Shown in pieces: positions 2,014-24,960 of a stretch of DNA of 64,000 nucleotides. Origin of the DNA: Halarcobacter anaerophilus. Its GTDB lineage: Bacteria > Campylobacterota > Campylobacteria > Campylobacterales > Arcobacteraceae. The translations under genes were made by a program, and so were the position numbers. A model generated the notes under the pieces. The model was not told the origin of the DNA and did no database searches. It was given only the letters and a program-made list of their open reading frames with translations. Numbering within the stretch: the first letter of the stretch is position 1; each line of letters starts with the position of its first letter. The stretch is from assembly GCF_006459125.1 (NCBI RefSeq), contig NZ_CP041070.1:1240001-1304000 (forward strand). Reading direction: 5' to 3'.

Positions 2014-2456
2014 TGGACAGCAAAAAAGTATATTTAGTACAAGCTGATACGACAGTGGGTTTTTCATCAGACAATGATGAAAAACTCTCAACTATAAAAC
2101 AAAGACCTATCACTCAAAAAATGTTGCAAACAGTAGACTCTTTTGCAACACTATCAAAATATACAAGAGTTCCAAAAACAGATAGAAAAAGAGTAAGAAG
2201 AGCAAAAAGAACGACTTTTATCTATCCAAATCAAAAATCTTTCAGAGTTATTCAAAGAGATGATAGATTTTATGATTTTATAAAAAAATTCGGTGCTTTA
2301 TATTCAACTTCCGCAAATCTTACGGGAAACCATTTTGATGAAAAATTTGCTTTAGAACATTCTGATATTATAGTTTTAGACAAAGAGGGGTTTAGTGAAA
2401 AAATCTCTTCTTCAATTTATAAACTGGGAAAAAGAAAACTAAAAAAAATTAGATAG
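2013..2456 (+). CDS. Sua5/YciO/YrdC-family protein (short form)
   Basis: A 147-residue protein with the YrdC-type fold signature: TTVGFSS near residue 13 matches the TDTVYGL-like motif, followed by KQRP, and STSANLTG near residue 98 is the characteristic late motif. Family members bind RNA or make threonylcarbamoyl-AMP for tRNA t6A37. This protein is shorter than standard TsaC/Sua5 (about 190-350 residues), so enzymatic t6A activity is uncertain. The ATG overlaps the carB stop by one base. The 3' end overlaps the convergent LuxR-type gene by 8 bp. Confidence 0.8.
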   Translation: MDSKKVYLVQADTTVGFSSDNDEKLSTIKQRPITQKMLQTVDSFATLSKYTRVPKTDRKRVRRAKRTTFIYPNQKSFRVIQRDDRFYDFIKKFGALYSTSANLTGNHFDEKFALEHSDIIVLDKEGFSEKISSSIYKLGKRKLKKIR

Positions 2457-3054
2457 TGCTTTTAAAAAACAGAGCCAGAGAGAGTCTGTCTTTTTTATCG
2501 AGTTTCTTAAAAAGCGAACTTATATGTTTTTTAACGGTAACTTCTGCCAAATCCAAAGTTTGTGCTATTTTTGAATTATTCAACCCTTGAGAGAGAAGTT
2601 CTAAGACTTCAAGCTCTTTTATAGAGAGTTTATTAAGAAGCTCTTTCTCTTTTTTATTTTCAAGGGGAACAGAAGAGATTAAAAACTGCATCAATTCAGG
2701 ATAAACCCAAATTTTTCCATTCTCTAAAGCTTTTATAATATCATTGATAATCAAAGAGTTTGAAATAGAGTGGGCATAGGCTTTAATCCCTTTTTTCAGT
2801 AAAGAACAACCCTCTATATTATTTGGATTATCTCTAAAAACCGCTATTTTTATTCCTTGAAAATCCTCTAACAACTCTTTTATATCTTCTTGAAAATCTT
2901 TATTTGAATCTAAATGGTATAAAAGTATGCCACCTGATTTTAGATAATTAAATATTTCTAAATTCTCTTTAACAATATTAATATCTTCTATAAAAGAGGA
3001 CTTTTTAATCTCTTTAATCAAAAAGTCTTGTTTTGAAAAAAGAACTATATTCAT
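2449..3054 (-). CDS. LuxR/NarL-type regulator of adhesin locus A
   Basis: A 201-residue protein with a poorly conserved receiver-like N-terminal half (residues 1-125) and a clear LuxR-type helix-turn-helix at the C-terminus (about 140-195; LSIKELEVLELLSQGLNNSK and VTVKKHISSLFKKL). The canonical acidic pocket and phosphoacceptor of receivers are not evident, so control by phosphorylation is doubtful. Its ATG overlaps the stop of the upstream PAS-HlyD gene by 4 bp, so the two are co-transcribed and probably coupled. A paralogue of identical length (28498-29103) sits next to the HlyD gene of locus B. Each type I secretion locus therefore has its own regulator. The target promoter is inferred to be that of the exporter or adhesin. 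Confidence 0.82.
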   Translation of the reverse strand: MNIVLFSKQDFLIKEIKKSSFIEDINIVKENLEIFNYLKSGGILLYHLDSNKDFQEDIKELLEDFQGIKIAVFRDNPNNIEGCSLLKKGIKAYAHSISNSLIINDIIKALENGKIWVYPELMQFLISSVPLENKKEKELLNKLSIKELEVLELLSQGLNNSKIAQTLDLAEVTVKKHISSLFKKLDKKDRLSLALFFKSTI

Positions 3055-4781
3055 ATTTCAAGAGACCTTACTATTGGTTTGAAAATATAGTCTAAAATAC
3101 TTTTCTTACCCGTAATAATATCCACATCAACAGACATCCCTGGTTTTATTTCCAACTTTTTATTATTATTCAAATATTTTGTATCTGCTTTGATATGTAC
3201 TATATAAACCTCTTTTTTCTCATCTTTCTCATCAATTAAAGTATCAGCGGAGATATAACTGATTTCTCCGTCAGCTGCTCCGTATAAAGAAAAATCATAA
3301 GGTCTTAATTTTATTCTTGCATGTTGACCTACATATAAAAACCCGATTTCACCCGGATCGACTTTAACTTCTGCAAGAGCATATTTACTCTCAGGAATAA
3401 TTTCGGCAATAACAGTTCCAGGCGACACTGCTTCACCTTTTGTTTTTATATTGATTTTATTTACAACACCGTCATTTGGTGATTTTATTATAGTCTCTGT
3501 TATCTTCTGTGATAAAAAGTTGATATCCTCTTTAACCTGTCTTAAATCATTTGCAGCAACAACCAATTCATCTTTTGAACTTGAACGGTAAGACTGAGTT
3601 GTCTCTTCAATACTTTTTTTAATCTCTTTTATTGCCGATTTTAAAGTAGGAATAGAACCTCTTATTTTTTTTATCTCAGAAAGAGTGTCGTTTTTTGTTC
3701 TTTCTAGTTGTAGAAGTTCTACTTTTGAAATAATTCTCTCTTCAACAAGAGGTTTTTTGATTTTCATCTCGTTTTCTATTAACTCAAAATTTGTTTCGTT
3801 TATCTCAAGATTTTTATAAGCATCGCTTAAATCATTTTGTCTTTGTATTAATTGCTCTTTTAAAACATTTATAGAAGCGGCAAATTTTTTCTCGTTTGTA
3901 TGAAAAAGCTCAATTTCATTTTGCATAATTGTATTATCAAAAGAGGCTACTTCTTTGTTTGATACTATTTCTTTGCCTTCTGACTGCGCTTCTAATCTTG
4001 CAATTTTTGCAAGAAGAGACATTCTGTTTTGTCTGTTTTTTTCAAAATCTTTTTTATAATCAAGATCCGATAGTTTAAAAAGAATATCTCCTTTCTTTAC
4101 ATGATTTCCCTCTTTTACGTAGATCTCTTTTAATGTACCGCCGTTTAAAGAAGATATTGTCTGTATATTTGTTGTAGTAATAATTTTACCTTGTGTTTTA
4201 ACAATATCATCAATTTTTGAAAAGTATGCCCAAGTTAGTAAAAAAACAATCGTAAAAGCAATTACCCATAATACTTTATGAAGTCCGCTTGAAGCTCTTA
4301 GTAAAACAGCAGAAGATAAAGAGGGCATAAAATCCAATACGGCTTTATTGTATCTTTTTTTCAAAAGATTCTCTTCATTTATTCTTTTTAGGGTTTTCTC
4401 TTTTGTTATATCATGACTTGCCAAAATAAAACCGATATGTTCATTATTATCATTAAAAAGAGGTGTTATAACCGTATCTGTCCAAATCACATGATCTGAA
4501 CTTGAAGCGTGTTTTACTTCACCTTTCCAGATAGTTTTTAAATCTCTTGCATCATCGAATTGATTGTTGAATGTTTGAATAGAATCTTTTTTTATTAAAA
4601 ACGTATAAGGTTTATTTAGCAAATCAGAGGGTTTGTATTTAAAGGTGTTGCACATTTGCGTGCTGACATGCTTTATGATTCCCTCTTTATTTGTAACTGC
4701 CAATATTACATAATTATCTAAAAGTTCTCTGTTTTGAAATCTGAAACTTTTGGTTAACTCATCATCTTGAATTTGATCCAC
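3051..4781 (-). CDS. PAS domain-HlyD fusion: type I secretion membrane-fusion protein with cytoplasmic sensor
   Basis: A 576-residue protein starting at GTG (4781) with AAGGA six bases upstream. Residues about 20-130 are a PAS domain of Aer-like type (VTNKEGIIKHVS, GEVKHASSSDHVIWTDTV, ending in HDITKEK). One membrane segment (about 170-187) follows, then HlyD-type lipoyl/barrel segments (GGTLKEIYVKEGNHVKKGD near 215), a long coiled coil (about 245-420) and a C-terminal beta-barrel region ending in GMSVDVDIITGKKSILDYI. From about residue 148 it aligns well with the HlyD of locus B (27117-28496), which lacks the PAS part. The PAS domain would lie in the cytoplasm beside the ABC exporter. It is divergent from the TolC gene of the same exporter. 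The PAS ligand (FAD, haem or other) cannot be told from sequence. Confidence 0.9.
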   Translation of the reverse strand: MDQIQDDELTKSFRFQNRELLDNYVILAVTNKEGIIKHVSTQMCNTFKYKPSDLLNKPYTFLIKKDSIQTFNNQFDDARDLKTIWKGEVKHASSSDHVIWTDTVITPLFNDNNEHIGFILASHDITKEKTLKRINEENLLKKRYNKAVLDFMPSLSSAVLLRASSGLHKVLWVIAFTIVFLLTWAYFSKIDDIVKTQGKIITTTNIQTISSLNGGTLKEIYVKEGNHVKKGDILFKLSDLDYKKDFEKNRQNRMSLLAKIARLEAQSEGKEIVSNKEVASFDNTIMQNEIELFHTNEKKFAASINVLKEQLIQRQNDLSDAYKNLEINETNFELIENEMKIKKPLVEERIISKVELLQLERTKNDTLSEIKKIRGSIPTLKSAIKEIKKSIEETTQSYRSSSKDELVVAANDLRQVKEDINFLSQKITETIIKSPNDGVVNKINIKTKGEAVSPGTVIAEIIPESKYALAEVKVDPGEIGFLYVGQHARIKLRPYDFSLYGAADGEISYISADTLIDEKDEKKEVYIVHIKADTKYLNNNKKLEIKPGMSVDVDIITGKKSILDYIFKPIVRSLEI

Positions 4782-4899
4782 TAATATCCTTAAAAATACC
4801 TAAAAATAAAAAAATACAAAAATATTGAAATAATTTTATAAAAATATTTATAAAAATTTGGTAATATTTATTCTGATTTTGTTATTTGTGGAAGTAAAT

Positions 4900-6753
4900 G
4901 TGAAAAATTTGATTACTCTTTTTATTATTTTATTTGTTATTAATTTATCAGATCTTAGTGCATTTAGTTTAAAAAACGGCTTTAAACTGGCTTTGGAAAA
5001 CGATATGGATTCTAAAGTAAACGAAAATAATCTAAAAAATATTCAATATGATCAAGATATTGCAAACTCTTTGATGCAACCCAAAGTAGATCTCTCCGTA
5101 ACTGCCCAATCAAGTAAAAGAACAGAAGGTCAAAAAAGACCTGAAACAGGTTCTCATACAAAAAGTGATGAATATTCTATTCAAGTTACCCAACCGCTTT
5201 TTGACGGTTTTGAATCAAAGTATGAAAAAGAGCTGCAAAAGAAAAGATATGAATCAGCCGTTTATTATCTAAAACAGAGTCAAAATGACGTTGCAACAAA
5301 TTATGTTCAAAGTTATATAAACGTATTAAGAGAAAAAGATCTCTTAACACTAAGTAAAGAAAAAGTTTCAATAAGTGAAGATATTTTCAGAAAAGTTTAT
5401 AAAAAATTGGATTTGGGATACGGAACAAAATTAGAGTATGAAGAAGTAAAAGGAAATTTAGGTGAAAGCAGAGTAAATGTTGACACCCAAAGAATCAATT
5501 TAACGGAAGCTTTGGAATCTTTAAAATATTATGTTCAAAGAGATCTTGACTCTTCTGAACTTATAGTGCCCACTTTTTTTTCAAAAATGCCCGAAAGTTT
5601 GGATAAAGCAGTAAAAATAGCCTTAGAAGAAAATCCTACCGTAAATGTCGCAAAAATAAATTTAGAAGTAGCAAAAGCTCAAGAAAAACAGACTATTAAA
5701 GAGTTTTATCCAAATGTCGATTTAGTAGGTTCTTATAATCTAAATGATTCTTTTTATCCAAAAGACGATAATGAATACAATGAATATACAATAGGAGTCG
5801 AATTAAGTTACAACCTTTATAACGGCGGTAAAAATCTTGCAGAAGCAAAAAAAGCTTTACAAAATATCAAAGAAAAACAGTATCTTATTAAAAAAAGCCA
5901 ATACCAAATAAAAAACAGAGTAAGACTGGCTTGGAACAGCTATGAATTGAATAAAGATAAAAACGGAAGTTTAAAATACTATTTAATAGCCAAAAAAGAT
6001 ATTTTGGATGCGACTTTTAAAGAGTTTGATTTAGGTTTACAAGATTTAAATACATTAGTTGAAAACTATATTGATTATATAGACGTAAAAAAAGATTATA
6101 TTTCAAATGTTTATGATTTATTGTATGCAAAATATGATCTGCTGGCAACTATGGGAAAACTTGCCGATAATCTTTTATCAGATGATTATCCTCCTATTGA
6201 TAAAGCAGAGAGGAATAATAAAAATTCAAATTTATTTAAAATTGATCCTTATAATTATGAAAACAATTTTGATTTAAAAGATGAAAAACAAGATGATATC
6301 TTGCAACCTGAAAAATCTGAAGATAAAAACGATACGGACAATAAAATTATAAAAAGCAACACTTTAGAAGAAATGAAAAGTTTATCCTCTTCTTTGGATA
6401 AAAAAACAAAGAAAGAAAAAAACACTTTTAAAGAGAAGTTTTTAACTGCCGCAGAAGATAAATATACGATTAATCTAGCCTATACGGACAGCTCAAAAAA
6501 AGCAGAAAAATTTTTGGACAAACATGAGATGAAAAATAGTGCTTTTTATTTTAGTTTTGGGTATGATAAAATACTTCAAAAAATAATGTACGGAGTTTTT
6601 GATTCAAAAAAAGAGGCTATAGAGGCTTTGAACTTATTACCTTCTTCTTTGAAAAGAAACAGTCCAAGAGTTGAAAAAATTTCTATAAAACAGAAATTAT
6701 ATAAAAAGTATCATCCGAAATCTTTTAATTTAATATTATTAGGGAGTATTTAA
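4900..6753 (+). CDS. TolC-family outer-membrane channel with C-terminal SPOR-like domain
   Basis: I place the start at GTG 4900, preceded by GGAAG (4890-4894) and followed by a good signal peptide (KNLITLFIILFVINLSDLSAFS). A TTG at 4858 is in frame but has no ribosome site. The 617-residue product has two TolC/OEP repeats (about 25-430; ENPTVNVAKINLEVAKAQ, SYNLYNGGKN), an acidic low-complexity linker (about 440-515) and a C-terminal segment (about 521-595). That segment has the pattern of a DamX-type SPOR domain: YTINLAY near its start, then YGVFDSKKEAIEALNLLP. SPOR domains bind peptidoglycan strands lacking stem peptides. It is the first gene of the tolC-ABC-adhesin unit of locus A and would form the outer-membrane exit for the giant adhesin. 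Confidence 0.88.
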   Translation: MKNLITLFIILFVINLSDLSAFSLKNGFKLALENDMDSKVNENNLKNIQYDQDIANSLMQPKVDLSVTAQSSKRTEGQKRPETGSHTKSDEYSIQVTQPLFDGFESKYEKELQKKRYESAVYYLKQSQNDVATNYVQSYINVLREKDLLTLSKEKVSISEDIFRKVYKKLDLGYGTKLEYEEVKGNLGESRVNVDTQRINLTEALESLKYYVQRDLDSSELIVPTFFSKMPESLDKAVKIALEENPTVNVAKINLEVAKAQEKQTIKEFYPNVDLVGSYNLNDSFYPKDDNEYNEYTIGVELSYNLYNGGKNLAEAKKALQNIKEKQYLIKKSQYQIKNRVRLAWNSYELNKDKNGSLKYYLIAKKDILDATFKEFDLGLQDLNTLVENYIDYIDVKKDYISNVYDLLYAKYDLLATMGKLADNLLSDDYPPIDKAERNNKNSNLFKIDPYNYENNFDLKDEKQDDILQPEKSEDKNDTDNKIIKSNTLEEMKSLSSSLDKKTKKEKNTFKEKFLTAAEDKYTINLAYTDSSKKAEKFLDKHEMKNSAFYFSFGYDKILQKIMYGVFDSKKEAIEALNLLPSSLKRNSPRVEKISIKQKLYKKYHPKSFNLILLGSI

Positions 6754-6759
6754 TACAGT

Positions 6760-8949
6760 ATGCAAATAAATGATGAATTAGATTTAAACTCTATAAAAGA
6801 GTATAAAAAAGAGGACTCTATTCTAGATTGTCTTACCATTTTTTGTAAAATGAACGGAAGACCTTACTCAAAAGATTCTTTGATTGCAGGTTTACCTGTA
6901 GAAGCAGGCAGAAATACTCCGATTCTTTTTTCTAAATATAATTCACGATCTCTCTTCTCAAGAGCAGCCAATAAAGCAGGCTTTAAAACAAAAGTTTTAA
7001 GAACAAAATTAGAGAAGATAAATCCTTTATTACTCCCTTGTATTTTACTTTTGGATAATAAGGATCCAAAAGATGAACTTGAAGCTTGTATTCTTTTAGG
7101 TTTTGACGATGAAATGAAAAGTGCAAGAATAACTCTTCCTGAAGCACCCAATGTTGAAACTGTCGTATCTATAGAAGAGTTAGAAAAAAAATATTACGGT
7201 TTTACAATATTACTTAAAAAAGAGCTTGAATTTAAAGAAAACGATACGGCTCTTTCAAGTATAAAAGAGAGCCATTGGTTATGGGGAAGCGTAAAAATAG
7301 TAAGGGATGTTTATAGAGATGTAATTATTGCCTCTTTTCTTATAAATATTTTTGTTTTATCAACTCCTCTTTTTACAATGAATGTTTACGACAGAGTAAT
7401 TCCTAATAATGCAAAAGATACTTTATGGCTCTTGGCTATAGGAGTTTTAGTTATATATGTAATTGATATAATCCTAAAATTTTTACGTTCATATTTTCTT
7501 GAAACAGCCGCTAAAAAAACCGATATAATAGCCTCTTCAATAATTTTTGAAAAAGTATTGGATTTGAAAATGTCTTCAGTTCCAAACTCCGTGGGAGCTT
7601 TGGCAAATGTTTTAAAAGAGTTTGAAAGTATTCGTGGTTTTTTAACCTCTTCAACAATAGCACTGCTTATTGATATACCTTTTATTTTTATCTTTTTAAT
7701 TGCAATCTATTTTATAGGCGGCGCTTTGGTAATGGTCCCTATCTCAATTATTATAATAATATTGATATATACATATTATGCAAAATTAAAATTGGCAAAT
7801 AGTATAAAAGAGTCTTATGATGCAGGTTCAAATAAAAATGCAGTTTTAATTGAGAGTTTATCTTCAATAGAAACAATCAAATCTTTAGGGGCAACAGGTT
7901 ACTCCCAATGGAGATGGGAAGAAGCAACTTCAAAAATCGCGGATAAAAGTATAAAATCAAAAATGATTTCATCTTCAATTACTTCTGTAACTTCATTTTT
8001 GGTTCAATTAAACACGGTAGCTTTGGTAATCTTAGGTACATATATGATTTCAGACAATAATCTTTCTATGGGGGGACTTATTGCAACAATAATAATTTCA
8101 TCAAGATGTATCTCTCCTATGGGACAAGTATCCTCTTTACTCTCAACTTTTCAACACACAAAAACTACATATGAAGCTTTAAATGATATTATGAATCTTC
8201 CTGTAGAACACCCTCAAGGTAAAAAGTTTGTTGCTAGACCTGAATATAGAGGAAAAATTGATTTTAGAAATGTAACTTTCACTTATCCAGGAGCAGATAA
8301 AGAGACCTTGACAAATATCTCATTTAGTGTAGAACCTGGTGAAAAAGTTGCAATTATAGGAAAAATAGGTTCGGGAAAAAGTACGATTGAAAAACTTATG
8401 GTCTCTTTATATCATCCTGATGAAGGTTCAATTTTAATTGATAATATAGATATAAAACAATTAGACCCAAGTGAACTTAGAAAAAACATTGCATATGTTT
8501 CTCAAGAGAGTCTGCTTTTTGACGGTACAGTAAAAGAGAATATCGTTTATAGAACACCCCATATAGATGATGACAAAATTCTGGAAGCAGCACAAATAAG
8601 CGGAGTTTTGGACTTTGTAAATAAACATCCAAAAGGATTGGATATGCCAGTAGGGGAAAGAGGATCTTTTCTTTCCGGAGGACAAAAACAGGCGATTGCA
8701 ATAGCAAGATCTATTCTTCTTCCTTATCCTATAGTATTGTTAGATGAACCTACAAGCTCTATGGATATGTCAACGGAATCAAGATTTATAAATAATATCA
8801 GAAAATATCAACAAAATAAAACAGTATTGTTGGTAACTCATAAAACCTCACTTTTAAGACTTGTCGACAGAATTATTGTTCTAGAAGACGGGAAAATAGT
8901 ATTAGACGGTAAAAAAGAGATTGTATTAAGTAAACTCGGGAAAAAATAG
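6760..8949 (+). CDS. LapB-type type I secretion ABC transporter (locus A)
   Basis: A 729-residue exporter with three parts. The N-terminal C39-peptidase-like domain (about 1-150) shows the LapB pattern (LIAGLPVE, LFSRAANKAGF) and no intact catalytic Cys-His-Asp arrangement, so it should bind substrate rather than cut a leader. The transmembrane domain spans about 180-450 (FTMNVYDRVIPNNA). The ATPase domain has Walker A GKIGSGKST, signature FLSGGQKQ and Walker B IVLLDEPT. It lies 6 bp after the TolC-SPOR gene and 92 bp before the giant adhesin gene, which it presumably exports with the PAS-HlyD adaptor. Confidence 0.93.
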   Translation: MQINDELDLNSIKEYKKEDSILDCLTIFCKMNGRPYSKDSLIAGLPVEAGRNTPILFSKYNSRSLFSRAANKAGFKTKVLRTKLEKINPLLLPCILLLDNKDPKDELEACILLGFDDEMKSARITLPEAPNVETVVSIEELEKKYYGFTILLKKELEFKENDTALSSIKESHWLWGSVKIVRDVYRDVIIASFLINIFVLSTPLFTMNVYDRVIPNNAKDTLWLLAIGVLVIYVIDIILKFLRSYFLETAAKKTDIIASSIIFEKVLDLKMSSVPNSVGALANVLKEFESIRGFLTSSTIALLIDIPFIFIFLIAIYFIGGALVMVPISIIIIILIYTYYAKLKLANSIKESYDAGSNKNAVLIESLSSIETIKSLGATGYSQWRWEEATSKIADKSIKSKMISSSITSVTSFLVQLNTVALVILGTYMISDNNLSMGGLIATIIISSRCISPMGQVSSLLSTFQHTKTTYEALNDIMNLPVEHPQGKKFVARPEYRGKIDFRNVTFTYPGADKETLTNISFSVEPGEKVAIIGKIGSGKSTIEKLMVSLYHPDEGSILIDNIDIKQLDPSELRKNIAYVSQESLLFDGTVKENIVYRTPHIDDDKILEAAQISGVLDFVNKHPKGLDMPVGERGSFLSGGQKQAIAIARSILLPYPIVLLDEPTSSMDMSTESRFINNIRKYQQNKTVLLVTHKTSLLRLVDRIIVLEDGKIVLDGKKEIVLSKLGKK

Positions 8950-9041: not shown

Positions 9042-12000
9042 ATGGCTATTGCAAGAATTACGGATATAAAAGGTTTAGTAACTTTAGACGGAACATCGGA
9101 AGAGATTTTAAAAAACAGAGATGAAATCTCGGATCACGGTGGATTACTTACTATTGCAGAGTTTGCAAAAATTATATTTGACGACGGAAGAGAAGTCGAA
9201 GTAACAGGACCCGTTAGTTTCAATCTTGACAGCACTTTCTTCAATGAAGGAACATTTGAAGAATCCATAACCCAGATTAGCGATTTAGCAAGTTTAGAAT
9301 ATATAGATACTCAACTAGATGAAACAAAATTAGCCGATATAGCAGTAGATAATATAACAGATCAAAACCTTGCTTCACAAAATGTAGATAGCGAACAATT
9401 AAATACACAATTAGATCAAGATACCACTCAGTTGGATACTCAAAATATAATTACTCCAACAATATTAAATGAAGATACAACAATAGAAAATCAAGAATCA
9501 ACAGCAGATACAGTAGTAGATAATAATACAAATGATGAATCAACAGATAATACTCCTGTTGATACGGAAATAGGAACACCTAGTATCAGCTTTGAAAATC
9601 CGGGTGAAGACGGAATCTATAATGCAGAAGAATTAGGAGAAGATGGAACAGTAAGTGCAACAATCTTTGTAACGGGAAGTGAAGTAGGAGATACTTTAAC
9701 ATATACTGTAAATGGAGAACAAACAACAGTAATATTAAGTGCAGATGATATAGCAAACGGAGTAACAATCGAAGTTACACCTGAATCAACGGTAACAGCA
9801 ACTTTATCGGATGCTGCGGGTAACACTTCGGAAACAGCAAGTGCAACAGCCTCTAGTGCAGATGTAGAAGCGCAAGCAGGAACAGTAAGTGTAGATAATA
9901 TCACAACAGATGATGTAATAAATGCAAGTGAAGCAGATGAAACAATCACAGTAACAGGAACAGCAACAGGTGGAGATATAAGTGAAGGTGATAGCGTAAG
10001 CTTTACAGTAAATGGAACAGAGTATAGAGCAACAGTAGGAGAAGATGGAAGCTGGAGTGCAGATGTAGCAGGAAGTGACCTAGCAGCAGATACAAGCTTC
10101 GAAGTAAGTGTAGAATCAAGTGATGAAGCAGGAAATACAGTAACAACAAAAGGAACATCAAGCCATACAGTAGATGTAGAAGCGCAAGCAGGAACAGTAA
10201 GTGTAGATAATATCACAACAGATGATGTAATAAATGCAAGTGAAGCAGATGAAACAATCACAGTAACAGGAACAGCAACAGGTGGAGATATAAGTGAAGG
10301 TGATAGCGTAAGCTTTACAGTAAATGGAACAGAGTATAGAGCAACAGTAGGAGAAGATGGAAGCTGGAGTGCAGATGTAGCAGGAAGTGACCTAGCAGCA
10401 GATACAAGCTTCGAAGTAAGTGTAGAATCAAGTGATGAAGCAGGAAATACAGTAACAACAAAAGGAACATCAAGCCATACAGTAGATGTAGAAGCGCAAG
10501 CAGGAACAGTAAGTGTAGATAATATCACAACAGATGATGTAATAAATGCAAGTGAAGCAGATGAAACAATCACAGTAACAGGAACAGCAACAGGTGGAGA
10601 TATAAGTGAAGGTGATAGCGTAAGCTTTACAGTAAATGGAACAGAGTATAGAGCAACAGTAGGAGAAGATGGAAGCTGGAGTGCAGATGTAGCAGGAAGT
10701 GACCTAGCAGCAGATACAAGCTTCGAAGTAAGTGTAGAATCAAGTGATGAAGCAGGAAATACAGTAACAACAAAAGGAACATCAAGCCATACAGTAGATG
10801 TAGAAGCGCAAGCAGGAACAGTAAGTGTAGATAATATCACAACAGATGATGTAATAAATGCAAGTGAAGCAGATGAAACAATCACAGTAACAGGAACAGC
10901 AACAGGTGGAGATATAAGTGAAGGTGATAGCGTAAGCTTTACAGTAAATGGAACAGAGTATAGAGCAACAGTAGGAGAAGATGGAAGCTGGAGTGCAGAT
11001 GTAGCAGGAAGTGACCTAGCAGCAGATACAAGCTTCGAAGTAAGTGTAGAATCAAGTGATGAAGCAGGAAATACAGTAACAACAACAGGAACATCAAGCC
11101 ATACAGTAGATGTAGAAGCGCAAGCAGGAACAGTAAGTGTAGATAATATCACAACAGATGATGTAATAAATGCAAGTGAAGCAGATGAAACAATCACAGT
11201 AACAGGAACAGCAACAGGTGGAGATATAAGTGAAGGTGATAGCGTAAGCTTTACAGTAAATGGAACAGAGTATAGAGCAACAGTAGGAGAAGATGGAAGC
11301 TGGAGTGCAGATGTAGCAGGAAGTGACCTAGCAGCAGATACAAGCTTCGAAGTAAGTGTAGAATCAAGTGATGAAGCAGGAAATACAGTAACAACAACAG
11401 GAACATCAAGCCATACAGTAGATGTAGAAGCGCAAGCAGGAACAGTAAGTGTAGATAATATCACAACAGATGATGTAATAAATGCAAGTGAAGCAGATGA
11501 AACAATCACAGTAACAGGAACAGCAACAGGTGGAGATATAAGTGAAGGTGATAGCGTAAGCTTTACAGTAAATGGAACAGAGTATAGAGCAACAGTAGGA
11601 GAAGATGGAAGCTGGAGTGCAGATGTAGCAGGAAGTGACCTAGCAGCAGATACAAGCTTCGAAGTAAGTGTAGAATCAAGTGATGAAGCAGGAAATACAG
11701 TAACAACAAAAGGAACATCAAGCCATACAGTAGATGTAGAAGCGCAAGCAGGAACAGTAAGTGTAGATAATATCACAACAGATGATGTAATAAATGCAAG
11801 TGAAGCAGATGAAACAATCACAGTAACAGGAACAGCAACAGGTGGAGATATAAGTGAAGGTGATAGCGTAAGCTTTACAGTAAATGGAACAGAGTATAGA
11901 GCAACAGTAGGAGAAGATGGAAGCTGGAGTGCAGATGTAGCAGGAAGTGACCTAGCAGCAGATACAAGCTTCGAAGTAAGTGTAGAATCAAGTGATGAAG

Positions 12001-15000
12001 CAGGAAATACAGTAACAACAAAAGGAACATCAAGCCATACAGTAGATGTAGAAGCGCAAGCAGGAACAGTAAGTGTAGATAATATCACAACAGATGATGT
12101 AATAAATGCAAGTGAAGCAGATGAAACAATCACAGTAACAGGAACAGCAACAGGTGGAGATATAAGTGAAGGTGATAGCGTAAGCTTTACAGTAAATGGA
12201 ACAGAGTATAGAGCAACAGTAGGAGAAGATGGAAGCTGGAGTGCAGATGTAGCAGGAAGTGACCTAGCAGCAGATACAAGCTTCGAAGTAAGTGTAGAAT
12301 CAAGTGATGAAGCAGGAAATACAGTAACAACAACAGGAACATCAAGCCATACAGTAGATGTAGAAGCGCAAGCAGGAACAGTAAGTGTAGATAATATCAC
12401 AACAGATGATGTAATAAATGCAAGTGAAGCAGATGAAACAATCACAGTAACAGGAACAGCAACAGGTGGAGATATAAGTGAAGGTGATAGCGTAAGCTTT
12501 ACAGTAAATGGAACAGAGTATAGAGCAACAGTAGGAGAAGATGGAAGCTGGAGTGCAGATGTAGCAGGAAGTGACCTAGCAGCAGATACAAGCTTCGAAG
12601 TAAGTGTAGAATCAAGTGATGAAGCAGGAAATACAGTAACAACAACAGGAACATCAAGCCATACAGTAGATGTAGAAGCGCAAGCAGGAACAGTAAGTGT
12701 AGATAATATCACAACAGATGATGTAATAAATGCAAGTGAAGCAGATGAAACAATCACAGTAACAGGAACAGCAACAGGTGGAGATATAAGTGAAGGTGAT
12801 AGCGTAAGCTTTACAGTAAATGGAACAGAGTATAGAGCAACAGTAGGAGAAGATGGAAGCTGGAGTGCAGATGTAGCAGGAAGTGACCTAGCAGCAGATA
12901 CAAGCTTCGAAGTAAGTGTAGAATCAAGTGATGAAGCAGGAAATACAGTAACAACAAAAGGAACATCAAGCCATACAGTAGATGTAGAAGCGCAAGCAGG
13001 AACAGTAAGTGTAGATAATATCACAACAGATGATGTAATAAATGCAAGTGAAGCAGATGAAACAATCACAGTAACAGGAACAGCAACAGGTGGAGATATA
13101 AGTGAAGGTGATAGCGTAAGCTTTACAGTAAATGGAACAGAGTATAGAGCAACAGTAGGAGAAGATGGAAGCTGGAGTGCAGATGTAGCAGGAAGTGACC
13201 TAGCAGCAGATACAAGCTTCGAAGTAAGTGTAGAATCAAGTGATGAAGCAGGAAATACAGTAACAACAAAAGGAACATCAAGCCATACAGTAGATGTAGA
13301 AGCGCAAGCAGGAACAGTAAGTGTAGATAATATCACAACAGATGATGTAATAAATGCAAGTGAAGCAGATGAAACAATCACAGTAACAGGAACAGCAACA
13401 GGTGGAGATATAAGTGAAGGTGATAGCGTAAGCTTTACAGTAAATGGAACAGAGTATAGAGCAACAGTAGGAGAAGATGGAAGCTGGAGTGCAGATGTAG
13501 CAGGAAGTGACCTAGCAGCAGATACAAGCTTCGAAGTAAGTGTAGAATCAAGTGATGAAGCAGGAAATACAGTAACAACAACAGGAACATCAAGCCATAC
13601 AGTAGATGTAGAAGCGCAAGCAGGAACAGTAAGTGTAGATAATATCACAACAGATGATGTAATAAATGCAAGTGAAGCAGATGAAACAATCACAGTAACA
13701 GGAACAGCAACAGGTGGAGATATAAGTGAAGGTGATAGCGTAAGCTTTACAGTAAATGGAACAGAGTATAGAGCAACAGTAGGAGAAGATGGAAGCTGGA
13801 GTGCAGATGTAGCAGGAAGTGACCTAGCAGCAGATACAAGCTTCGAAGTAAGTGTAGAATCAAGTGATGAAGCAGGAAATACAGTAACAACAACAGGAAC
13901 ATCAAGCCATACAGTAGATGTAACTACTAGTGATATTTCAAAATTGGCAATTACTGATATCGTGGATAATGAAGGTGACTATAGCAACGTAACAATGTTT
14001 GGAACAGGTGCCGAAGCAGGGAATACTATTAGTTTATATAATGAAAACAATGAAATTGTTGCAACAACTACTGTAAAAGATGATGGAACTTGGGAAGTTG
14101 ATATTTCATCTTTAGAGGGTACACCTGTTAATGACAATGAATTTTTCAGTGTTACTGAAACAGATTTAGCGGGAAATGAAACAGCACAAACTGATACTAC
14201 ACATTATTGGCATGGAGATTGGTCTGAAGCAAATAGTGAATCTTCAGATGATTTTATAATGACGGGTTCAGGTGATGATACTATTAATACAGATGATATC
14301 TTAAGCGGAACAAATGAAAACGGAAAAGTAACAAGTACTAACGATGATACTAATGATTCCCTTGTTATAGATGGCGGTGATGGAAATGATACTGTTACTT
14401 TTGGCGGTAATATAGCAGATTATACAATTACTACTGATTCAAAAGGTAATGTTATCGTAACTGAAACTTCTTCAAGTGACAGTGATAGTAACGGTATTGG
14501 AGATGTTACAGAACTTAGAAATATTGAAACTATAGAGTTTGAAGACGGTACTTATGATGTTGGAAGCGGTACTTTTGTTGAATTTGATACTCAAGCAGAT
14601 TCTCTTACTGCTTCTATTGATGTAGGAACAGTTAGTACAATTTTATCTCAAAATGCAGTTGTTGACGAAGATGCAAACAATTCAGACGGAATTTATGAAA
14701 AAGATGGAAAATATTATCAAATGCAAGAGACATCTCAAATTGATACGGCAGCTTTGAGAGATCTTGGATATACAATAGATAATGACGGTAAATTTTATAA
14801 AATAAATGAAGATGCTCCTAAAGTTCTTGTAGAGCAAGAAATGACAAGAGAAGTGACACATGTAGTAGATGCCGAGCCTATAATGAAAGTGGCAACAGAA
14901 ACTACAACTTTCGAAACTTTGGGAGAAGAGTTTTCTCATAATGTAGGTGAAATAAGAAGTGGTCATTCAACAACAATAGATCTTGGTGAAACAACAAAAA

Positions 15001-18000
15001 ATATTGAGTTAGATTTCAATAACTTTAATAGTGGAAGCCTTAAAGTAGAGTTCCTGGATGATAAAGGAAAGGTAATTGCGACGCGTACTTCTTGTCCTGC
15101 ACATGATGGGCAAAGAGGGTATGGATTTGGAGAAGAGTTTAGTGCAGTTAGATTAACTGCAAATAATTCAGATATTGAAGTTCAAACAATAAATGGTAGG
15201 GGATTACCTGAAACGGTTACCGTTGAAGCAGGAGGATTAGTTCCTGATTATGAAGCAATGGAAGAAGCAGGTATTAACTGGACGCAAACAGATTATCAAG
15301 TTCTTACACAAAGTGAAGATATAAATAATATCGGTAATGTAGGAAATAATAAAGTTAACGGTTTTAATCCTGAAGATCATGAATTAAGCCAAGTATTTGA
15401 TTTTGGTCCTGATATGGCTAATCGTTTAGTAACAATTACTGTTGATTTGGAAGTAAAAGGTAGCTGGGATAATAATAGTACAAGTACGAATGACTATTTT
15501 AGTGTTAGTGCAAATGGAGAAGAGCTTGACGTAAACTTTTATTCAAGTAACGGAAACTCTTACACTTATGATTCAGAAGATGTAAGTTATCTAGGATGGG
15601 ATCAAAGAGAAGATTTTACTTATGATTATCAAGTCTATCTTGATGAAAACGGACAAGTACAACTTGATTTTATGGTTGCTTCTACTGCATCGGATGAAAA
15701 TGTAAATGTACATAATATTGATGTTACTTATGAAGGTCAAAGCGGATGGGTAAAAGAAGAGACACAAACAGAAACATATACTGAAAGTGTACTTGTAGAT
15801 GCTCCTGCCGAAGAAGTTGATCTTTCTGAAATTCCAGGCGGTATACCGTACATTTCCGAAGAAGTTGAAGTTGAACCGAATATGACGACAGAAGATGACG
15901 TAACTGCTTACTCTTATCCTGTTGATATAAGTGCTGCTCTTTCTGATATTGATGGAAGTGAAACTTTAAGTGTTCTTATAACAGGAGTACCGGAAGGTGC
16001 AACTCTTAGTAAAGGTGTAGATAACGGTGACGGTACTTGGTCTATTGTAGTTCCTGAAGGAGATACTTCTATTAGTGACAGCTTAACTATAACTGTACTT
16101 CCTGATACAAAAGATTTTGATCTTGGAATTAAAGCAGTATCAACAGAAAGTAATGGAGGAGATACAAATATTGCAGAAGATAGCGATTTAGTAGATGTTC
16201 CTGATTTAATCGAAACTCCTACTTTAGATATGAGTATCGGTGATGTAAATGTAATTGAAAGTTCAAATGACTTAGGTCTTGAAGCAAACGGAACGGAAGA
16301 TTATGTAAACAACAGTTTATTTGCTAGTAATGAGGCAGATACTTTTGTTTTTAATGATACTTATTCATCACATATATATACAAGAGGAGGAGATGATACT
16401 TTAACTCTTTCAGGAAATGCAACTAACGGTTCAATATATCTAGGTAGTGGAGATGACACCTTATATGTTGCAGGTGATGTAAACGGTGAATATATCAATA
16501 CAGACTCAGCTTTTTCAAGAGGAGATGATACCGTAGTTATTGATGGAAAATTTACAAATGCTTCAATGTCAACAGGCGGCGGAAATGATTTTGTTCAAAT
16601 TGGTGATTTTGGAAGTTCAAATATAAATCTTGGAAGTGGAAATGATGTATTAAAATTATCAGGAAATCAAAATGATTATAAAATCTATGATAATGGATAC
16701 GGTAATTATACAATAGAACATAATGGACAATGGACAAGTGTAACAGGTGCCGAAGCAATTGTATTTGAAGATGGAAATTTTATGGGGAATGAAGACTTTG
16801 CAAAAGAATATATTAACTCAAATTCAGACCTTACGTACGAATATCAAATTGATTTAGATGCCAATATAACAGATGACAGCATATTATCTAATATTACTTT
16901 GGATAATCTTCCTGAAAATGCAATATTAAAAGATAGTAACGGTAATGAAATTTCTGCAAATGAAGATGGAACATACACTATTCAAACAGATACAAATTCA
17001 GATGCTTCTATAACAGTTGTCAGCAATAATGAATTATCTTCAGACTCATTAAACAGTATTACGGCAAGTATAACTGCAACAAACGGTGATACTTCTGCTA
17101 CAGTTACCGTAAATGATGAGGGTGTCGTTTCTAATATTGAAGATTCTCTTCAAAGTGCGACTCTAATAGACGGTGTAGTAGAAGGTGCATATTACGAAAC
17201 AAGTTCCGGAGTTACAGGATTGACTGATGAAAACGGTAATTTTAATTTTAGAGCCGGAGATGATGTAACATTTAGTGTTGGAGGAGTTGTTTTAGGTGTA
17301 GCAACGGCAGAAGATATCGCAAGCGGTCAAACTTTTTTACAAGATATAGCAGATGTCAGCAGAAGTGATTTAAATGATGAACATCTAGAAAATATGGCAG
17401 TATTCTTACAATCTATTGATACCTTGGATAGTGGAGATAATATAGTAATTACCCAAGCTATGAGGGACGCTTTGTCTGATACTACTCTTGATCTAAGAAC
17501 AGCAAGTGAAGAAGAGGTTCATCATCTAATAGAGAACGTGGGTGGAAATTATGTAGAAGAAAGTGATGCAATGAATCATGTTCAACAAATGTTGGAAGAG
17601 TATACAGATATGGATTCTACACAATTTGAAGAACATATTGATGATGACTTAAATAATGCAACTTTAGGAAAAGAACCGCAGGCTGGAGTTGAATATCAAA
17701 CAAGTTCAGGTATAAACGGAGTTACGGATGATACAGGAAGTTTTGATTATTATGACGGGGATTCTATAACTTTTTCACAAAACGGTGAAGTTTTGTCAAC
17801 AATAGATAGTCAAAATATAGGTGATGATAATTTAATTACCCTAAACGAACTTCAAGAATACGATCAAAATGAAATTGATTTGGATAATCTTGAACTAGAC
17901 TTTGATAACTTGTCCGATGCCATAGTAACTGATGATATTATAGATAACTCAGATGATTTTAATCATGTAAACATATCAGATATGTTATCAAGCGATGAAG

Positions 18001-18221
18001 AAGATACAAATAGTTTATCTCAATTATTAGGTGAAACAGAAGATGATAAAGCATCGGCACTTTCATCAAATGATGAAGCTGCATCTACTCCTGATAATAC
18101 CCAAGATACAAACTTAGTTGATGATTATGATCCGTTTAAAGCTTTAGAAGAGAGTTCACATAATTTAATGGCAGATAAAGATATGAATGATGGATTAGAT
18201 GATACTCATCACGATAGTTAA
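9042..18221 (+). CDS. giant repetitive type I-secreted adhesin A (3059 aa)
   Basis: The N-terminal ~90 residues resemble a LapA-type retention module (MAIARITDIKGLVTLDG, then FDDGREVEV), followed by a Thr/Asp/Asn-rich linker. Residues 274-1625 are 13 consecutive 104-residue bacterial Ig-like repeats of the SiiE/LapA kind (VINASEADETITVTGTATGG, NGTEYRATVGEDGSW), identical except for one Lys/Thr position. Beyond them come further Ig-like sequence, RTX-like Asp/Gly repeats (near 1735-1800 and 2433-2577; GGDDTLTL, GSGNDVLKL), an unassigned region around 1890-2250 that may be a ligand-binding domain, and two related modules near 2710 and 2881 (YETSSGVTGLTDENGNF, YQTSSGINGVTDDTGSF). The acidic C-terminus should hold the type I secretion signal. 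There is no Sec signal peptide. The protein is acidic and apparently nearly cysteine-free, as expected for a calcium-stiffened surface adhesin. No di-alanine LapG site is visible in the N-terminal region. Confidence 0.92.
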   Translation: MAIARITDIKGLVTLDGTSEEILKNRDEISDHGGLLTIAEFAKIIFDDGREVEVTGPVSFNLDSTFFNEGTFEESITQISDLASLEYIDTQLDETKLADIAVDNITDQNLASQNVDSEQLNTQLDQDTTQLDTQNIITPTILNEDTTIENQESTADTVVDNNTNDESTDNTPVDTEIGTPSISFENPGEDGIYNAEELGEDGTVSATIFVTGSEVGDTLTYTVNGEQTTVILSADDIANGVTIEVTPESTVTATLSDAAGNTSETASATASSADVEAQAGTVSVDNITTDDVINASEADETITVTGTATGGDISEGDSVSFTVNGTEYRATVGEDGSWSADVAGSDLAADTSFEVSVESSDEAGNTVTTKGTSSHTVDVEAQAGTVSVDNITTDDVINASEADETITVTGTATGGDISEGDSVSFTVNGTEYRATVGEDGSWSADVAGSDLAADTSFEVSVESSDEAGNTVTTKGTSSHTVDVEAQAGTVSVDNITTDDVINASEADETITVTGTATGGDISEGDSVSFTVNGTEYRATVGEDGSWSADVAGSDLAADTSFEVSVESSDEAGNTVTTKGTSSHTVDVEAQAGTVSVDNITTDDVINASEADETITVTGTATGGDISEGDSVSFTVNGTEYRATVGEDGSWSADVAGSDLAADTSFEVSVESSDEAGNTVTTTGTSSHTVDVEAQAGTVSVDNITTDDVINASEADETITVTGTATGGDISEGDSVSFTVNGTEYRATVGEDGSWSADVAGSDLAADTSFEVSVESSDEAGNTVTTTGTSSHTVDVEAQAGTVSVDNITTDDVINASEADETITVTGTATGGDISEGDSVSFTVNGTEYRATVGEDGSWSADVAGSDLAADTSFEVSVESSDEAGNTVTTKGTSSHTVDVEAQAGTVSVDNITTDDVINASEADETITVTGTATGGDISEGDSVSFTVNGTEYRATVGEDGSWSADVAGSDLAADTSFEVSVESSDEAGNTVTTKGTSSHTVDVEAQAGTVSVDNITTDDVINASEADETITVTGTATGGDISEGDSVSFTVNGTEYRATVGEDGSWSADVAGSDLAADTSFEVSVESSDEAGNTVTTTGTSSHTVDVEAQAGTVSVDNITTDDVINASEADETITVTGTATGGDISEGDSVSFTVNGTEYRATVGEDGSWSADVAGSDLAADTSFEVSVESSDEAGNTVTTTGTSSHTVDVEAQAGTVSVDNITTDDVINASEADETITVTGTATGGDISEGDSVSFTVNGTEYRATVGEDGSWSADVAGSDLAADTSFEVSVESSDEAGNTVTTKGTSSHTVDVEAQAGTVSVDNITTDDVINASEADETITVTGTATGGDISEGDSVSFTVNGTEYRATVGEDGSWSADVAGSDLAADTSFEVSVESSDEAGNTVTTKGTSSHTVDVEAQAGTVSVDNITTDDVINASEADETITVTGTATGGDISEGDSVSFTVNGTEYRATVGEDGSWSADVAGSDLAADTSFEVSVESSDEAGNTVTTTGTSSHTVDVEAQAGTVSVDNITTDDVINASEADETITVTGTATGGDISEGDSVSFTVNGTEYRATVGEDGSWSADVAGSDLAADTSFEVSVESSDEAGNTVTTTGTSSHTVDVTTSDISKLAITDIVDNEGDYSNVTMFGTGAEAGNTISLYNENNEIVATTTVKDDGTWEVDISSLEGTPVNDNEFFSVTETDLAGNETAQTDTTHYWHGDWSEANSESSDDFIMTGSGDDTINTDDILSGTNENGKVTSTNDDTNDSLVIDGGDGNDTVTFGGNIADYTITTDSKGNVIVTETSSSDSDSNGIGDVTELRNIETIEFEDGTYDVGSGTFVEFDTQADSLTASIDVGTVSTILSQNAVVDEDANNSDGIYEKDGKYYQMQETSQIDTAALRDLGYTIDNDGKFYKINEDAPKVLVEQEMTREVTHVVDAEPIMKVATETTTFETLGEEFSHNVGEIRSGHSTTIDLGETTKNIELDFNNFNSGSLKVEFLDDKGKVIATRTSCPAHDGQRGYGFGEEFSAVRLTANNSDIEVQTINGRGLPETVTVEAGGLVPDYEAMEEAGINWTQTDYQVLTQSEDINNIGNVGNNKVNGFNPEDHELSQVFDFGPDMANRLVTITVDLEVKGSWDNNSTSTNDYFSVSANGEELDVNFYSSNGNSYTYDSEDVSYLGWDQREDFTYDYQVYLDENGQVQLDFMVASTASDENVNVHNIDVTYEGQSGWVKEETQTETYTESVLVDAPAEEVDLSEIPGGIPYISEEVEVEPNMTTEDDVTAYSYPVDISAALSDIDGSETLSVLITGVPEGATLSKGVDNGDGTWSIVVPEGDTSISDSLTITVLPDTKDFDLGIKAVSTESNGGDTNIAEDSDLVDVPDLIETPTLDMSIGDVNVIESSNDLGLEANGTEDYVNNSLFASNEADTFVFNDTYSSHIYTRGGDDTLTLSGNATNGSIYLGSGDDTLYVAGDVNGEYINTDSAFSRGDDTVVIDGKFTNASMSTGGGNDFVQIGDFGSSNINLGSGNDVLKLSGNQNDYKIYDNGYGNYTIEHNGQWTSVTGAEAIVFEDGNFMGNEDFAKEYINSNSDLTYEYQIDLDANITDDSILSNITLDNLPENAILKDSNGNEISANEDGTYTIQTDTNSDASITVVSNNELSSDSLNSITASITATNGDTSATVTVNDEGVVSNIEDSLQSATLIDGVVEGAYYETSSGVTGLTDENGNFNFRAGDDVTFSVGGVVLGVATAEDIASGQTFLQDIADVSRSDLNDEHLENMAVFLQSIDTLDSGDNIVITQAMRDALSDTTLDLRTASEEEVHHLIENVGGNYVEESDAMNHVQQMLEEYTDMDSTQFEEHIDDDLNNATLGKEPQAGVEYQTSSGINGVTDDTGSFDYYDGDSITFSQNGEVLSTIDSQNIGDDNLITLNELQEYDQNEIDLDNLELDFDNLSDAIVTDDIIDNSDDFNHVNISDMLSSDEEDTNSLSQLLGETEDDKASALSSNDEAASTPDNTQDTNLVDDYDPFKALEESSHNLMADKDMNDGLDDTHHDS
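9861..13916 (+). repeat. 13 tandem 312-bp repeats inside adhesin A
   Basis: Units start at 9861, 10173, 10485, 10797, 11109, 11421, 11733, 12045, 12357, 12669, 12981, 13293 and 13605, with an exact period of 312 bp (104 codons). By eye the units are identical in DNA sequence, apart from one A/C change that turns a Lys codon (aaa) into Thr (aca). The Lys/Thr states run KKKTTKKTTKKTT, a higher-order period of four units. Such identity implies recent or continuing homogenisation by recombination, or copy-number error in assembly. Confidence 0.97.
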
Positions 18222-22377: not shown

Positions 22378-22422
22378 TGTTTATACAATTCTTAAAATTA
22401 AATTTTGTGTAAGGTAGTAGAT

Positions 22423-24960
22423 ATGAAAAAGAAGAGTATTCTTAGTATTTTTACAAGTGGTATTTTACTTGTGGGTATAAATATAAATGCGTTAACACTT
22501 GAAGATAGTGTAAAAGAGGCTTTAAATACAAATCCTGTAGTAAAAGAGAGATTAAAAAATTTAAGAGAAGTGCAACAAGATTTAAATATTGCCGACTCTG
22601 AATGGTATCCCTCTTTGGATTATCGAGCTAGTGTGGGTATTAATGATGCAGGAGAATATAAAGAAGATGATGTAGATGATATAAATTACAGACATTACAC
22701 TCACTCTTTAAAACTAACTCAAAATATATTCAACGGTTTTAGTACAACCAATAAAATAGATTATCAAAAAACAAGAATTTTAGCCGCAGCTCATCACTAT
22801 ATAGAAAATGCTAATGATATTGCTTTTCAAATGGTTAGTTCATATTTAGATTCAATTAGAAGTTATAGATTACTACAAAATGCTAAAGATAATGTTGTAA
22901 TTAATGAAAAAATTTATGAAGATGTAAAATCTTTATATAACAGTGGACTTACAACAAAATCTGAAATGACTAAAATATACTCTTCTTTAGCTTTGGCAAA
23001 ATCAAATCTTGTAGTACAACAAAACAATATGCTTGACAAAGGGTTTAGATTTAAAAGAATTTTAGGAAGAGATGTAAAAGTTTCTGAATTATCTTTACCT
23101 AAAATAAATTTTGCAATGCCGGAGAGTTTGGAAAGAGCAACAATGGTTGCAATAAAAAACAATCCATCAATTCTTGTAAGTAAATATAATGTACAAGGTG
23201 CGCAAAGTTTATATAGAGAGAAAAAAAGCAAATATTATCCCAAAGTAGATCTTGAACTTGAACAGCTTTATAATGATGTTAACAAAGATAATAATTTTGA
23301 CTCTCCCGATGATAGATTCAGAGCTTACGTTGTTTTAAGCTGGAACTTATACAAAGGTGGAGCACACAAAGCAGATATTCAAAAAAGTAGAAGTTCTATA
23401 AATAAAGAGATTGAAATTCAAAGAGATTTGAAAAGACAAACAATAGAGAGTTTGGAACTGTCTTGGTCTGCATATGAGATGTTAAGTAAACAACTAAATG
23501 AGTTATACAATTACTTTGAATATAGTGAGGATACTTTAAATAGTTATCAAAGTGAGTATGAAATGGGTAGAAGAACTCTATTAGACCTTTTATCTGCACA
23601 AAATGATTTAATCAACTCAAAAAATCAAATCATCAATGCCGAAACAGATAAACTTTTTGCACAATACAGAGTTTTAGATGCAATGGGATTACTTGTAAAT
23701 TCACTTTTAGATGAAAATCAATATGAAAAAATCATTTATCCTACAAAAAAACCTTTTGAAATAAAAGAGGATACTTTACCTGTAAAACTGGATGTTGATA
23801 ATGATGGAGTTGTGGACTCTTTAGATATTTGTGATAACTCTTTACCAGGGAATAATATAAAACCTACAGGTTGTGTAGAGTTTGAAGCTGACTCGGATTT
23901 TGACGGAGTTGCAAATACAAAAGATACTTGTCCTAATACTACTTTCGGTGCCTTAGTTGATGAGGAGGGTTGTGCTATAGAAGGTGAAAAAAACAGATTC
24001 GAAATAGACCATGCTGTTTATTTAGACGAAGTTCCTAAATATAATGAAAACAGTCCTAAAAAATCAGAAAAATTAGGTCTTTACGATTATGAGTTTAATA
24101 TTGCTGCTAATAAAAATGTTGAGTCAACAAAACTTGATAAACATCTAATGTATGATGATTTTGAATTAATTAAAAGATTTGATTTTATTGATATGAATAA
24201 TTATGATTTAGAAGATGATGAGTTTAATAAGACAATAAAAAATATGGCTGAAACAATAAATTCATATAAAAGAGATGATATTACGGTTACAGTAATCGGA
24301 CATACTCAAAATATGAAAGATAATAAAGAAAGTTATGATAAAGCATTAGATTATTCTCAAAAAATTGCCGATGCCTTAATTAAAAACGGTGTAAATAAAG
24401 AGAGAATTGCTTCTCAATCAAGAGTTGATTTTGACAATCTATTTTTAGAAACAGACCTTCACGATATAAACAATGTCGTGGCAGTTGCTTTATATGTACC
24501 TAAAAGATTAGTGTTAGATGATGATAAAGACGGAGTTATTAATGAACAAGACAAATGTCCTAATACTGCTCCTGGATACACTGTAGACAAAGATGGATGT
24601 ACAAATAAAATCAATCTGGAAGTACTTTTTGAAAAAGACTCTTCAAAAATAAAAGAGGATACAAAAGAGAAGGTACTGGCTTTTGCTAAATTTTTAGTTG
24701 ATAATAAAGAGTTTAATACGGTAATTACAGGGCATTCAAGTAAAGAGAGTGAAAAAAGTTCGGCTATATATAATAAAAATTTGTCAAAACAAAGAGCTGA
24801 TGCAATAAGAACTCTTTTAATTGCAAACGGTGTTGAAGCCTCAAGAGTTACATCTCAAGGAAAAGGTTTTGAAGAACCTGTAGCAGATAATAATACTTAT
24901 GAAGGTCGAGTATTAAATAGAAGAATCGAAGCTGAATTAGTAAATGTAAATAAAAAGTAA
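22423..24960 (+). CDS. TolC-family channel fused to thrombospondin-3 repeats and OmpA domains
   Basis: The start is ATG 22423, with AAGG eight bases upstream; a TTG at 22405 is in frame but poorer. The 845-residue product has a signal peptide (to about residue 24, ININA), a TolC/OEP region (about 25-435; FNGFSTTNKIDY, LSWNLYKGG), calcium-binding type 3 thrombospondin-like repeats (from 457, DVDNDGVVDSLDIC; again at 699, DDDKDGVINEQDKC), a first divergent OmpA-like domain (about 580-690) and a canonical C-terminal OmpA domain (about 731-845). The last has NLSKQRADAIRTLLIANGV and LNRRIEAEL, the usual peptidoglycan-contact region. It would join the adhesin exit channel to the cell wall. It is followed by the ABC gene after 10 bp. 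Confidence 0.92.
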   Translation: MKKKSILSIFTSGILLVGININALTLEDSVKEALNTNPVVKERLKNLREVQQDLNIADSEWYPSLDYRASVGINDAGEYKEDDVDDINYRHYTHSLKLTQNIFNGFSTTNKIDYQKTRILAAAHHYIENANDIAFQMVSSYLDSIRSYRLLQNAKDNVVINEKIYEDVKSLYNSGLTTKSEMTKIYSSLALAKSNLVVQQNNMLDKGFRFKRILGRDVKVSELSLPKINFAMPESLERATMVAIKNNPSILVSKYNVQGAQSLYREKKSKYYPKVDLELEQLYNDVNKDNNFDSPDDRFRAYVVLSWNLYKGGAHKADIQKSRSSINKEIEIQRDLKRQTIESLELSWSAYEMLSKQLNELYNYFEYSEDTLNSYQSEYEMGRRTLLDLLSAQNDLINSKNQIINAETDKLFAQYRVLDAMGLLVNSLLDENQYEKIIYPTKKPFEIKEDTLPVKLDVDNDGVVDSLDICDNSLPGNNIKPTGCVEFEADSDFDGVANTKDTCPNTTFGALVDEEGCAIEGEKNRFEIDHAVYLDEVPKYNENSPKKSEKLGLYDYEFNIAANKNVESTKLDKHLMYDDFELIKRFDFIDMNNYDLEDDEFNKTIKNMAETINSYKRDDITVTVIGHTQNMKDNKESYDKALDYSQKIADALIKNGVNKERIASQSRVDFDNLFLETDLHDINNVVAVALYVPKRLVLDDDKDGVINEQDKCPNTAPGYTVDKDGCTNKINLEVLFEKDSSKIKEDTKEKVLAFAKFLVDNKEFNTVITGHSSKESEKSSAIYNKNLSKQRADAIRTLLIANGVEASRVTSQGKGFEEPVADNNTYEGRVLNRRIEAELVNVNKK

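Follow-up and report, generated by a model that had tools for sequence, protein, structure and literature searches.

The TolC-type outer-membrane channel encoded at locus A of the window (the whole stretch of 64,000 nucleotides analysed here) has a true DamX-type SPOR domain at its C-terminal end. We propose that this protein is probably a wall-tethered type 1 secretion channel whose tail would tie the anchor of an adhesin to peptidoglycan, and we regard wall anchoring, as put forward by the first-pass annotation, as the best available explanation for the domain. In the open-access literature, judged from titles and abstracts, we found no description of a SPOR-tailed TolC.

A SPOR domain at the end of a TolC channel

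The open reading frame for TolC of locus A (4858-6753, plus strand) likely starts with the GTG at 4900 and runs to the stop at 6753, giving a protein of 617 aa; GGAAG is found upstream of the GTG (4890-4894) and the signal peptide MKNLITLFIILFVINLSDLSAFS follows it. Signal peptide and TolC-type outer-membrane channel domain with its two OEP repeats (1.5e-44) together take up 4900-6174, and the profile TIGR01844 (type_I_sec_TolC) matches the protein at 1.1e-60 with 205.8 bits, which is below its curated cut-off of 225.15. Behind the channel domain and on the same strand follow a low-complexity polar linker of 92 aa (6175-6450, its limits being those of the OEP and SPOR matches), the SPOR domain with its beta-alpha-beta-beta-alpha-beta order (6451 to approximately 6708) and a C-terminal helical end (6709-6750) that corresponds to helix 107-116 of the segment modelled by AlphaFold2. 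Previously described as acidic, the linker is so in its first part, while as a whole it is polar with 21 D/E and 18 K/R residues.

Pfam SPOR (PF05036) matches residues 533-597 of the open frame (6454-6648 in the window) at 2.2e-4 and with 21.9 bits when the full protein is scanned, just above the curated cut-off of 21, and the domain scanned alone reaches 19.5-19.6 bits, slightly below it. From this sequence by itself, the Pfam assignment would thus have to be called borderline, and a score sitting at the cut-off is what might speak for a chance resemblance or for a degenerate tail without function. We consider this highly improbable, given the profile and fold evidence that follows and the 40-60% identity, with invariant residues, among TolC-SPOR domains across genera; as far as homology is concerned, chance is refuted. 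When 57 related domains were gathered from loci of the same family for profile and Pfam tests, 41 of them matched Pfam SPOR at E 0.01 or better (best 1.9e-9), and their profile, compared with the PDB, picked the SPOR domain of E. coli DamX (2LFV) at E 4.2e-12 with the runner-up at 0.19. A profile of four canonical SPOR domains aligned to that of the 57 domains at E 5e-8. Weak matches to DUF7336 in five of the related domains were disregarded.

Structure prediction agrees with the profiles. Using the family alignment, AlphaFold2 modelled the SPOR segment with a pLDDT of 91.4 and a pTM of 0.82 as an RNP-like fold, i.e. a four-stranded antiparallel sheet with helices on one side, for which Foldseek returned DamX first (E 3.3e-5) and DedD second. 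VIA-align likewise put DamX on top (Z 8.4 over 83 residues at 2.4 A); its other matches included the RlpA complex with denuded glycan (Z 6.2), CwlC (5.7) and DedD (5.4), and most unrelated folds stayed at Z 4.3 or less. Higher values among the unrelated folds came from a Burkholderia protein that is uncharacterised (6.8) and from two folds of the RNA-recognition type (6.2 and 5.5), the latter being expected because the SPOR fold is itself RNP-like. Hence the first-pass annotation, which had placed a DamX-type SPOR domain after the TolC fold on the basis of motifs that are indeed present in the protein and had named a profile search and a structure prediction as ways to check it, is borne out by both. 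In comparison with DamX and PF05036, fold and sequence are shared over some 83 residues and almost without gaps; what differs is that the known domains belong to an inner-membrane division protein or a lipoprotein, whereas the one described here is fused to an outer-membrane export channel.

The putative glycan-binding site

The glycan contacts of RlpA are made by Q270 and three arginines (R302, R309, R311), Q270 being the position best conserved among SPOR domains (PMC6895207). With the register fixed by the RlpA segment GLYLQVGAF...ILHRVRLGP, the alignment puts an Asn codon (6472-6474, plus strand; residue 525 of 617) where DamX (Q351), RlpA (Q270) and FtsN (Q251) have the glycan-binding Gln, and a Lys codon (6580-6582, plus strand; residue 561), placed by the HRVRLGP strand, where RlpA has R309 and FtsN R285. 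In both respects the TolC domain departs from DamX and PF05036. The two positions are invariant in 12 aligned TolC-SPOR proteins and, among the 57 related domains, the first is Asn in 46 and the second Lys (rarely Arg) in 50. TolC of locus A therefore does not have the first-strand Gln of a typical SPOR domain, a residue that is highly conserved among SPOR domains without being universal and so is typical rather than strictly defining. A basic residue of the sheet for the lactyl carboxylate is provided by K561; the other basic positions differ, and clear equivalents of RlpA R302 and R311, as well as of DamX W416, were not found in the domain. FtsN-like and RlpA-like SPOR proteins from the same genome retain the Gln. 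Judged by these alignments, we take the SPOR domains borne by TolC to be a conserved sub-type rather than decayed copies.

The same genome codes for a secreted 571-aa protein with four SPOR domains of this sub-type (L012:2422-4137, minus strand; C1:2426921-2428636 in its own genome), which is located between fusA and a NAD kinase gene and in which the Gln position is S in two copies and T and D in the others.

As the Gln is replaced by Asn, the ligand of the TolC SPOR domain cannot be taken for granted. This leaves room for the idea that the fold has taken on a ligand other than denuded peptidoglycan, for instance the N-terminal module of the adhesin, HlyD or another glycan, and besides the conserved Asn/Lys signature with its departure from canonical SPOR domains, it could call on TolCs with multiple SPOR copies (L025, L026, L027, L029, L045, L065), in which the channel-proximal copies have a degenerate glycan site and make up a clade of their own. 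We nonetheless hold it to be improbable, considering that the basic residue at the R309/R285 position has been kept in nearly all of the related domains and that OmpA, the alternative tail (see below), is likewise a wall-binding fold. Cell-wall binding by the SPOR domain of TolC A thus is likely. With their changed glycan site, these naturally occurring SPOR domains could also serve to test what the recognition of bare glycan requires.

For known SPOR domains, the ligand is denuded glycan and the location the septum (PMC6895207), which speaks for another option, namely that the domain serves as a positioning tag collecting the exporter at septal wall processed by amidases, so that the adhesin would be deployed at the division site and subsequently at the new poles. 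In line with this, the genome encodes, besides the FtsN-like and RlpA-like SPOR proteins, an Amidase_3 enzyme that could generate denuded glycan. However, the exchange of the key Gln for Asn counts against such a tag and makes the septal inference from DamX, FtsN and RlpA weaker than the inference of wall binding. Together with the distribution of OmpA tails described in the next section, where anchoring fits better, this leads us to see a role in positioning as unlikely.

Probable wall-binding tails on type 1 secretion channels

To our minds, it is the association of wall-binding tails with type 1 channels across the family that most deserves the attention of specialists. In a survey of nine genomes, with type 1 systems defined by HlyD genes above cut-off (n=26), the TolC tails were SPOR in 16 systems, OmpA in four (one of them slightly below the Pfam cut-off) and another short domain in four, while two had none, so that 20 of the 26 channels carry SPOR or OmpA. 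Neither domain was found on the at least 66 other, non-type-1 OEP proteins among the matches listed for the nine genomes, a lower bound from a hand count for which the proteins with long frames were retrieved and looked at (Pfam was run on two) and those with frames of some 520 aa or less were assumed to be without OmpA, there being no room for it. The resulting Fisher p-values (3e-15 for SPOR or OmpA, 2e-11 for SPOR alone) overstate the association since related genomes are not independent. The genome that harbours locus A fits the picture: its three type 1 ABC systems above cut-off have TolCs with SPOR, OmpA and SPOR tails, respectively, and its six other OEP proteins (397-480 aa) have no room for such a tail.

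Only type 1 channels that serve large substrates and work with large HlyD adaptors have the tail, which might also be read as a sign of an assembly aid, by which SPOR would bring the channel to thinned wall or hold TolC near the wall for docking of HlyD and ABC transporter. Yet RND and other efflux OEPs dock without any tail in the same cells, and the two tail-less type 1 TolCs show that secretion as such can do without one; we therefore rate assistance in assembly as quite improbable.

OmpA tails are exemplified by the second locus in the window, locus B, where TolC (22405-24960, plus strand) has no SPOR tail but TSP3 and two domains of the OmpA type (Pfam OmpA 8.1e-27, TSP_3 3e-8). OmpA domains bind stem peptides rather than bare glycan and do so along the whole wall. 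Two unrelated wall-binding folds are thus found on the same type of channel, and their free exchange, with OmpA replacing SPOR on sister systems, argues that the function they share is wall anchoring and not septal anchoring. In the second OmpA domain of TolC B, the Asp of the canonical GHTD (the peptide-binding position) is Ser with the Arg kept, as it is in L123 and L124.

Other additions to TolC proteins were seen as well. Two of the non-type-1 OEP proteins, both TolC-family lipoproteins (L127:1022-2974, L131:1079-2884), have bacterial SH3 domains at the C-terminus, which may be a further kind of wall-binding tail, and no adjoining HlyD of the TIGR01843 type. Two type 1 TolCs (L119:1172-3109, L121:1822-3672) have an extra N-terminal domain of about 75 aa, which is similar to the C-terminal tails of L118 and L122 (profile comparison, E 1e-4); domains and tails were both counted as 'other'. 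By eye, these N-terminal domains and tails look SPOR-like, an assignment that neither Pfam nor the profile comparison supports and that we rejected.

As for the spread of SPOR-tailed TolCs, our survey covered Campylobacterota and a plasmid collection. Relatives of the SPOR region were retrieved from 72 of 104 genomes of the family and, by a profile search across the phylum, from 44 of 397 sampled genomes including those of two further families (f7, f10), some of the matches being other kinds of SPOR protein; there was no match in the plasmid collection. TolCs with one to four SPOR copies occur throughout the Arcobacteraceae and in these two other families of Campylobacterales (f7, f10), and those that were read comprise class A, to which locus A belongs (one to three copies), class C (one copy in about 600 aa) and longer forms in which as many as four copies were detected. 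Genes for type 1 ABC transporter and HlyD were present in each of 20 fetched neighbourhoods (pieces of 13-20 kb), and a contig scan with class A TolC found four loci (Malaciobacter, Aliarcobacter, Arcobacter and an Epsilonproteobacteria MAG). Within class A, TolC and SPOR parts are conserved to 53% and 49%, and within class C to 66% and 53%. Between the two classes, however, TolC parts are 20% and SPOR parts 37% alike, from which it appears that SPOR either is the more strongly constrained part or has been passed as a module from one TolC lineage to another; its greater likeness is what one would expect if a useful module were retained or exchanged. Duplication takes place too, as in L018, where two nearly identical SPOR copies are the mark of a recent in-frame event.

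The adhesin exporter of locus A and a proposed tether to the wall

Directly downstream of TolC, locus A encodes a type 1 secretion ABC transporter of the LssB/LapB type (6760-8949, plus strand; TIGR03375, 888.8 bits against a cut-off of 693.1) and a giant adhesin of 3059 aa (9042-18221, plus strand), the presumed substrate, with at least 13 near-identical Ig-like repeats (NF012196 Ig_like_ice, 13 stretches). Divergently oriented are the genes for an HlyD-type periplasmic adaptor (3051-4781, minus strand; TIGR01843, 340 bits against a cut-off of 208.65), whose N-terminal PAS domain (PAS_9, 4.5e-14) is on the cytoplasmic side, and for a LuxR-type regulator (2449-3054, minus strand; GerE, 4.6e-14). 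With TolC, HlyD, ABC transporter and a large substrate found together, locus A is a type 1 secretion system, which upholds the earlier description of the channel as an adhesin exporter. Eight class A loci share this order (LuxR and PAS-HlyD divergent from TolC-SPOR, ABC transporter and adhesin), and the PAS-HlyD fusion is kept in all eight fetched. An open frame of 1358 aa antisense to the adhesin repeats (9617-13693, minus strand) is a by-product of the Ig-like repeats and not a gene.

Among the closest known counterparts are LapA-like systems, which share with locus A the TolC fold (LapE/AggA type), the gene order of LssB/LapB-type ABC transporter and HlyD, and a giant repeat adhesin with a conserved N-terminal module; relative to LapE/AggA-type TolCs, the channel of locus A has the C-terminal linker and SPOR domain in addition. 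The N-terminal module is conserved among the adhesins of the eight class A loci and, judged by eye, resembles a retention module of the LapA type. The canonical LapG dialanine motif ([TPA]AA[GED]) is absent from the adhesin of locus A and the fetched class A loci showed no homologue of LapG or LapD, and in these respects locus A does not correspond to an adhesin system controlled by LapA, LapD and LapG.

A giant adhesin retained by its TolC channel has to transmit large forces to the cell, and to our knowledge it is rarely addressed how such a TolC resists extraction from the outer membrane. A wall-binding domain covalently attached to most of the type 1 channels examined, and to none of the efflux channels, would be a direct and testable answer. 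According to our model, the TolC trimer resides in the outer membrane and from its periplasmic end would extend three flexible linkers of about 90 residues, each carrying a SPOR domain into the peptidoglycan layer for binding to glycan strands, most likely those with their stem peptides removed. Following export, the N-terminal module of the adhesin would remain plugged in the channel, as LapA does in LapE, and the retained adhesin would load TolC mechanically; with a SPOR tail on every protomer, this load could be shared with the wall, so that force pulling on the adhesin would be passed on and TolC spared from being extracted from the membrane. As a secondary effect, the channel may be enriched at sites with bare glycan strands, namely the septum and young poles.

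The C-terminus of TolC lies in the periplasm, and it is from this topology that we infer the placement of the SPOR tail there; wall binding, adhesin retention and load bearing are predicted. That the tail bears force is plausible by analogy with LapA and LapE, while localisation to septum or poles is speculative. Speaking against the tether are the Asn that TolC A has for the glycan-contacting Gln of DamX, RlpA and FtsN and the Ser that has taken the place of the peptide-binding Asp in the OmpA domain of locus B. Tentatively, and with some doubt on our part, we can picture a wider scenario, in which wall anchoring in Campylobacterota is a modular part of adhesin export (one to four SPOR copies, OmpA and perhaps other domains on TolCs for type 1 secretion and not for efflux) and the Asn/Lys subfamily of SPOR domains has changed its ligand preference in such a way that it grips the wall outside the septum and works as a tether under load instead of as a tag for the septum.

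Outside the Campylobacterota, adhesin loci of Vibrio and Marinomonas show that a domain of the wall-binding type can travel with the channel through which a giant adhesin is exported by type 1 secretion, as it does at locus A. On plasmids from both genera, an OmpA-family gene adjoins tolC, the Marinomonas one being part of a complete Lap-type locus. Here the wall-binding part has the OmpA fold and is a separate polypeptide instead of a fused tail, an arrangement that looks like the same idea in split form. For a wall-binding periplasmic domain in a giant-adhesin system, SiiA from the type 1 system of Salmonella SPI-4 sets a precedent (PMC12607715); unlike TolC A, it is an inner-membrane proton-channel subunit outside the TolC channel.

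In locus B, the canonical [TPA]AA[GED] cleavage motif was not found in the adhesin, the gene of which is followed by LapG-like and LapD-like genes (37413-39901, plus strand). A sensor kinase (18677-21637, plus strand) combining NMT1/THI5-like and SBP_bac_3 periplasmic binding domains with PAS adjoins a response regulator and the adhesin system of locus B.
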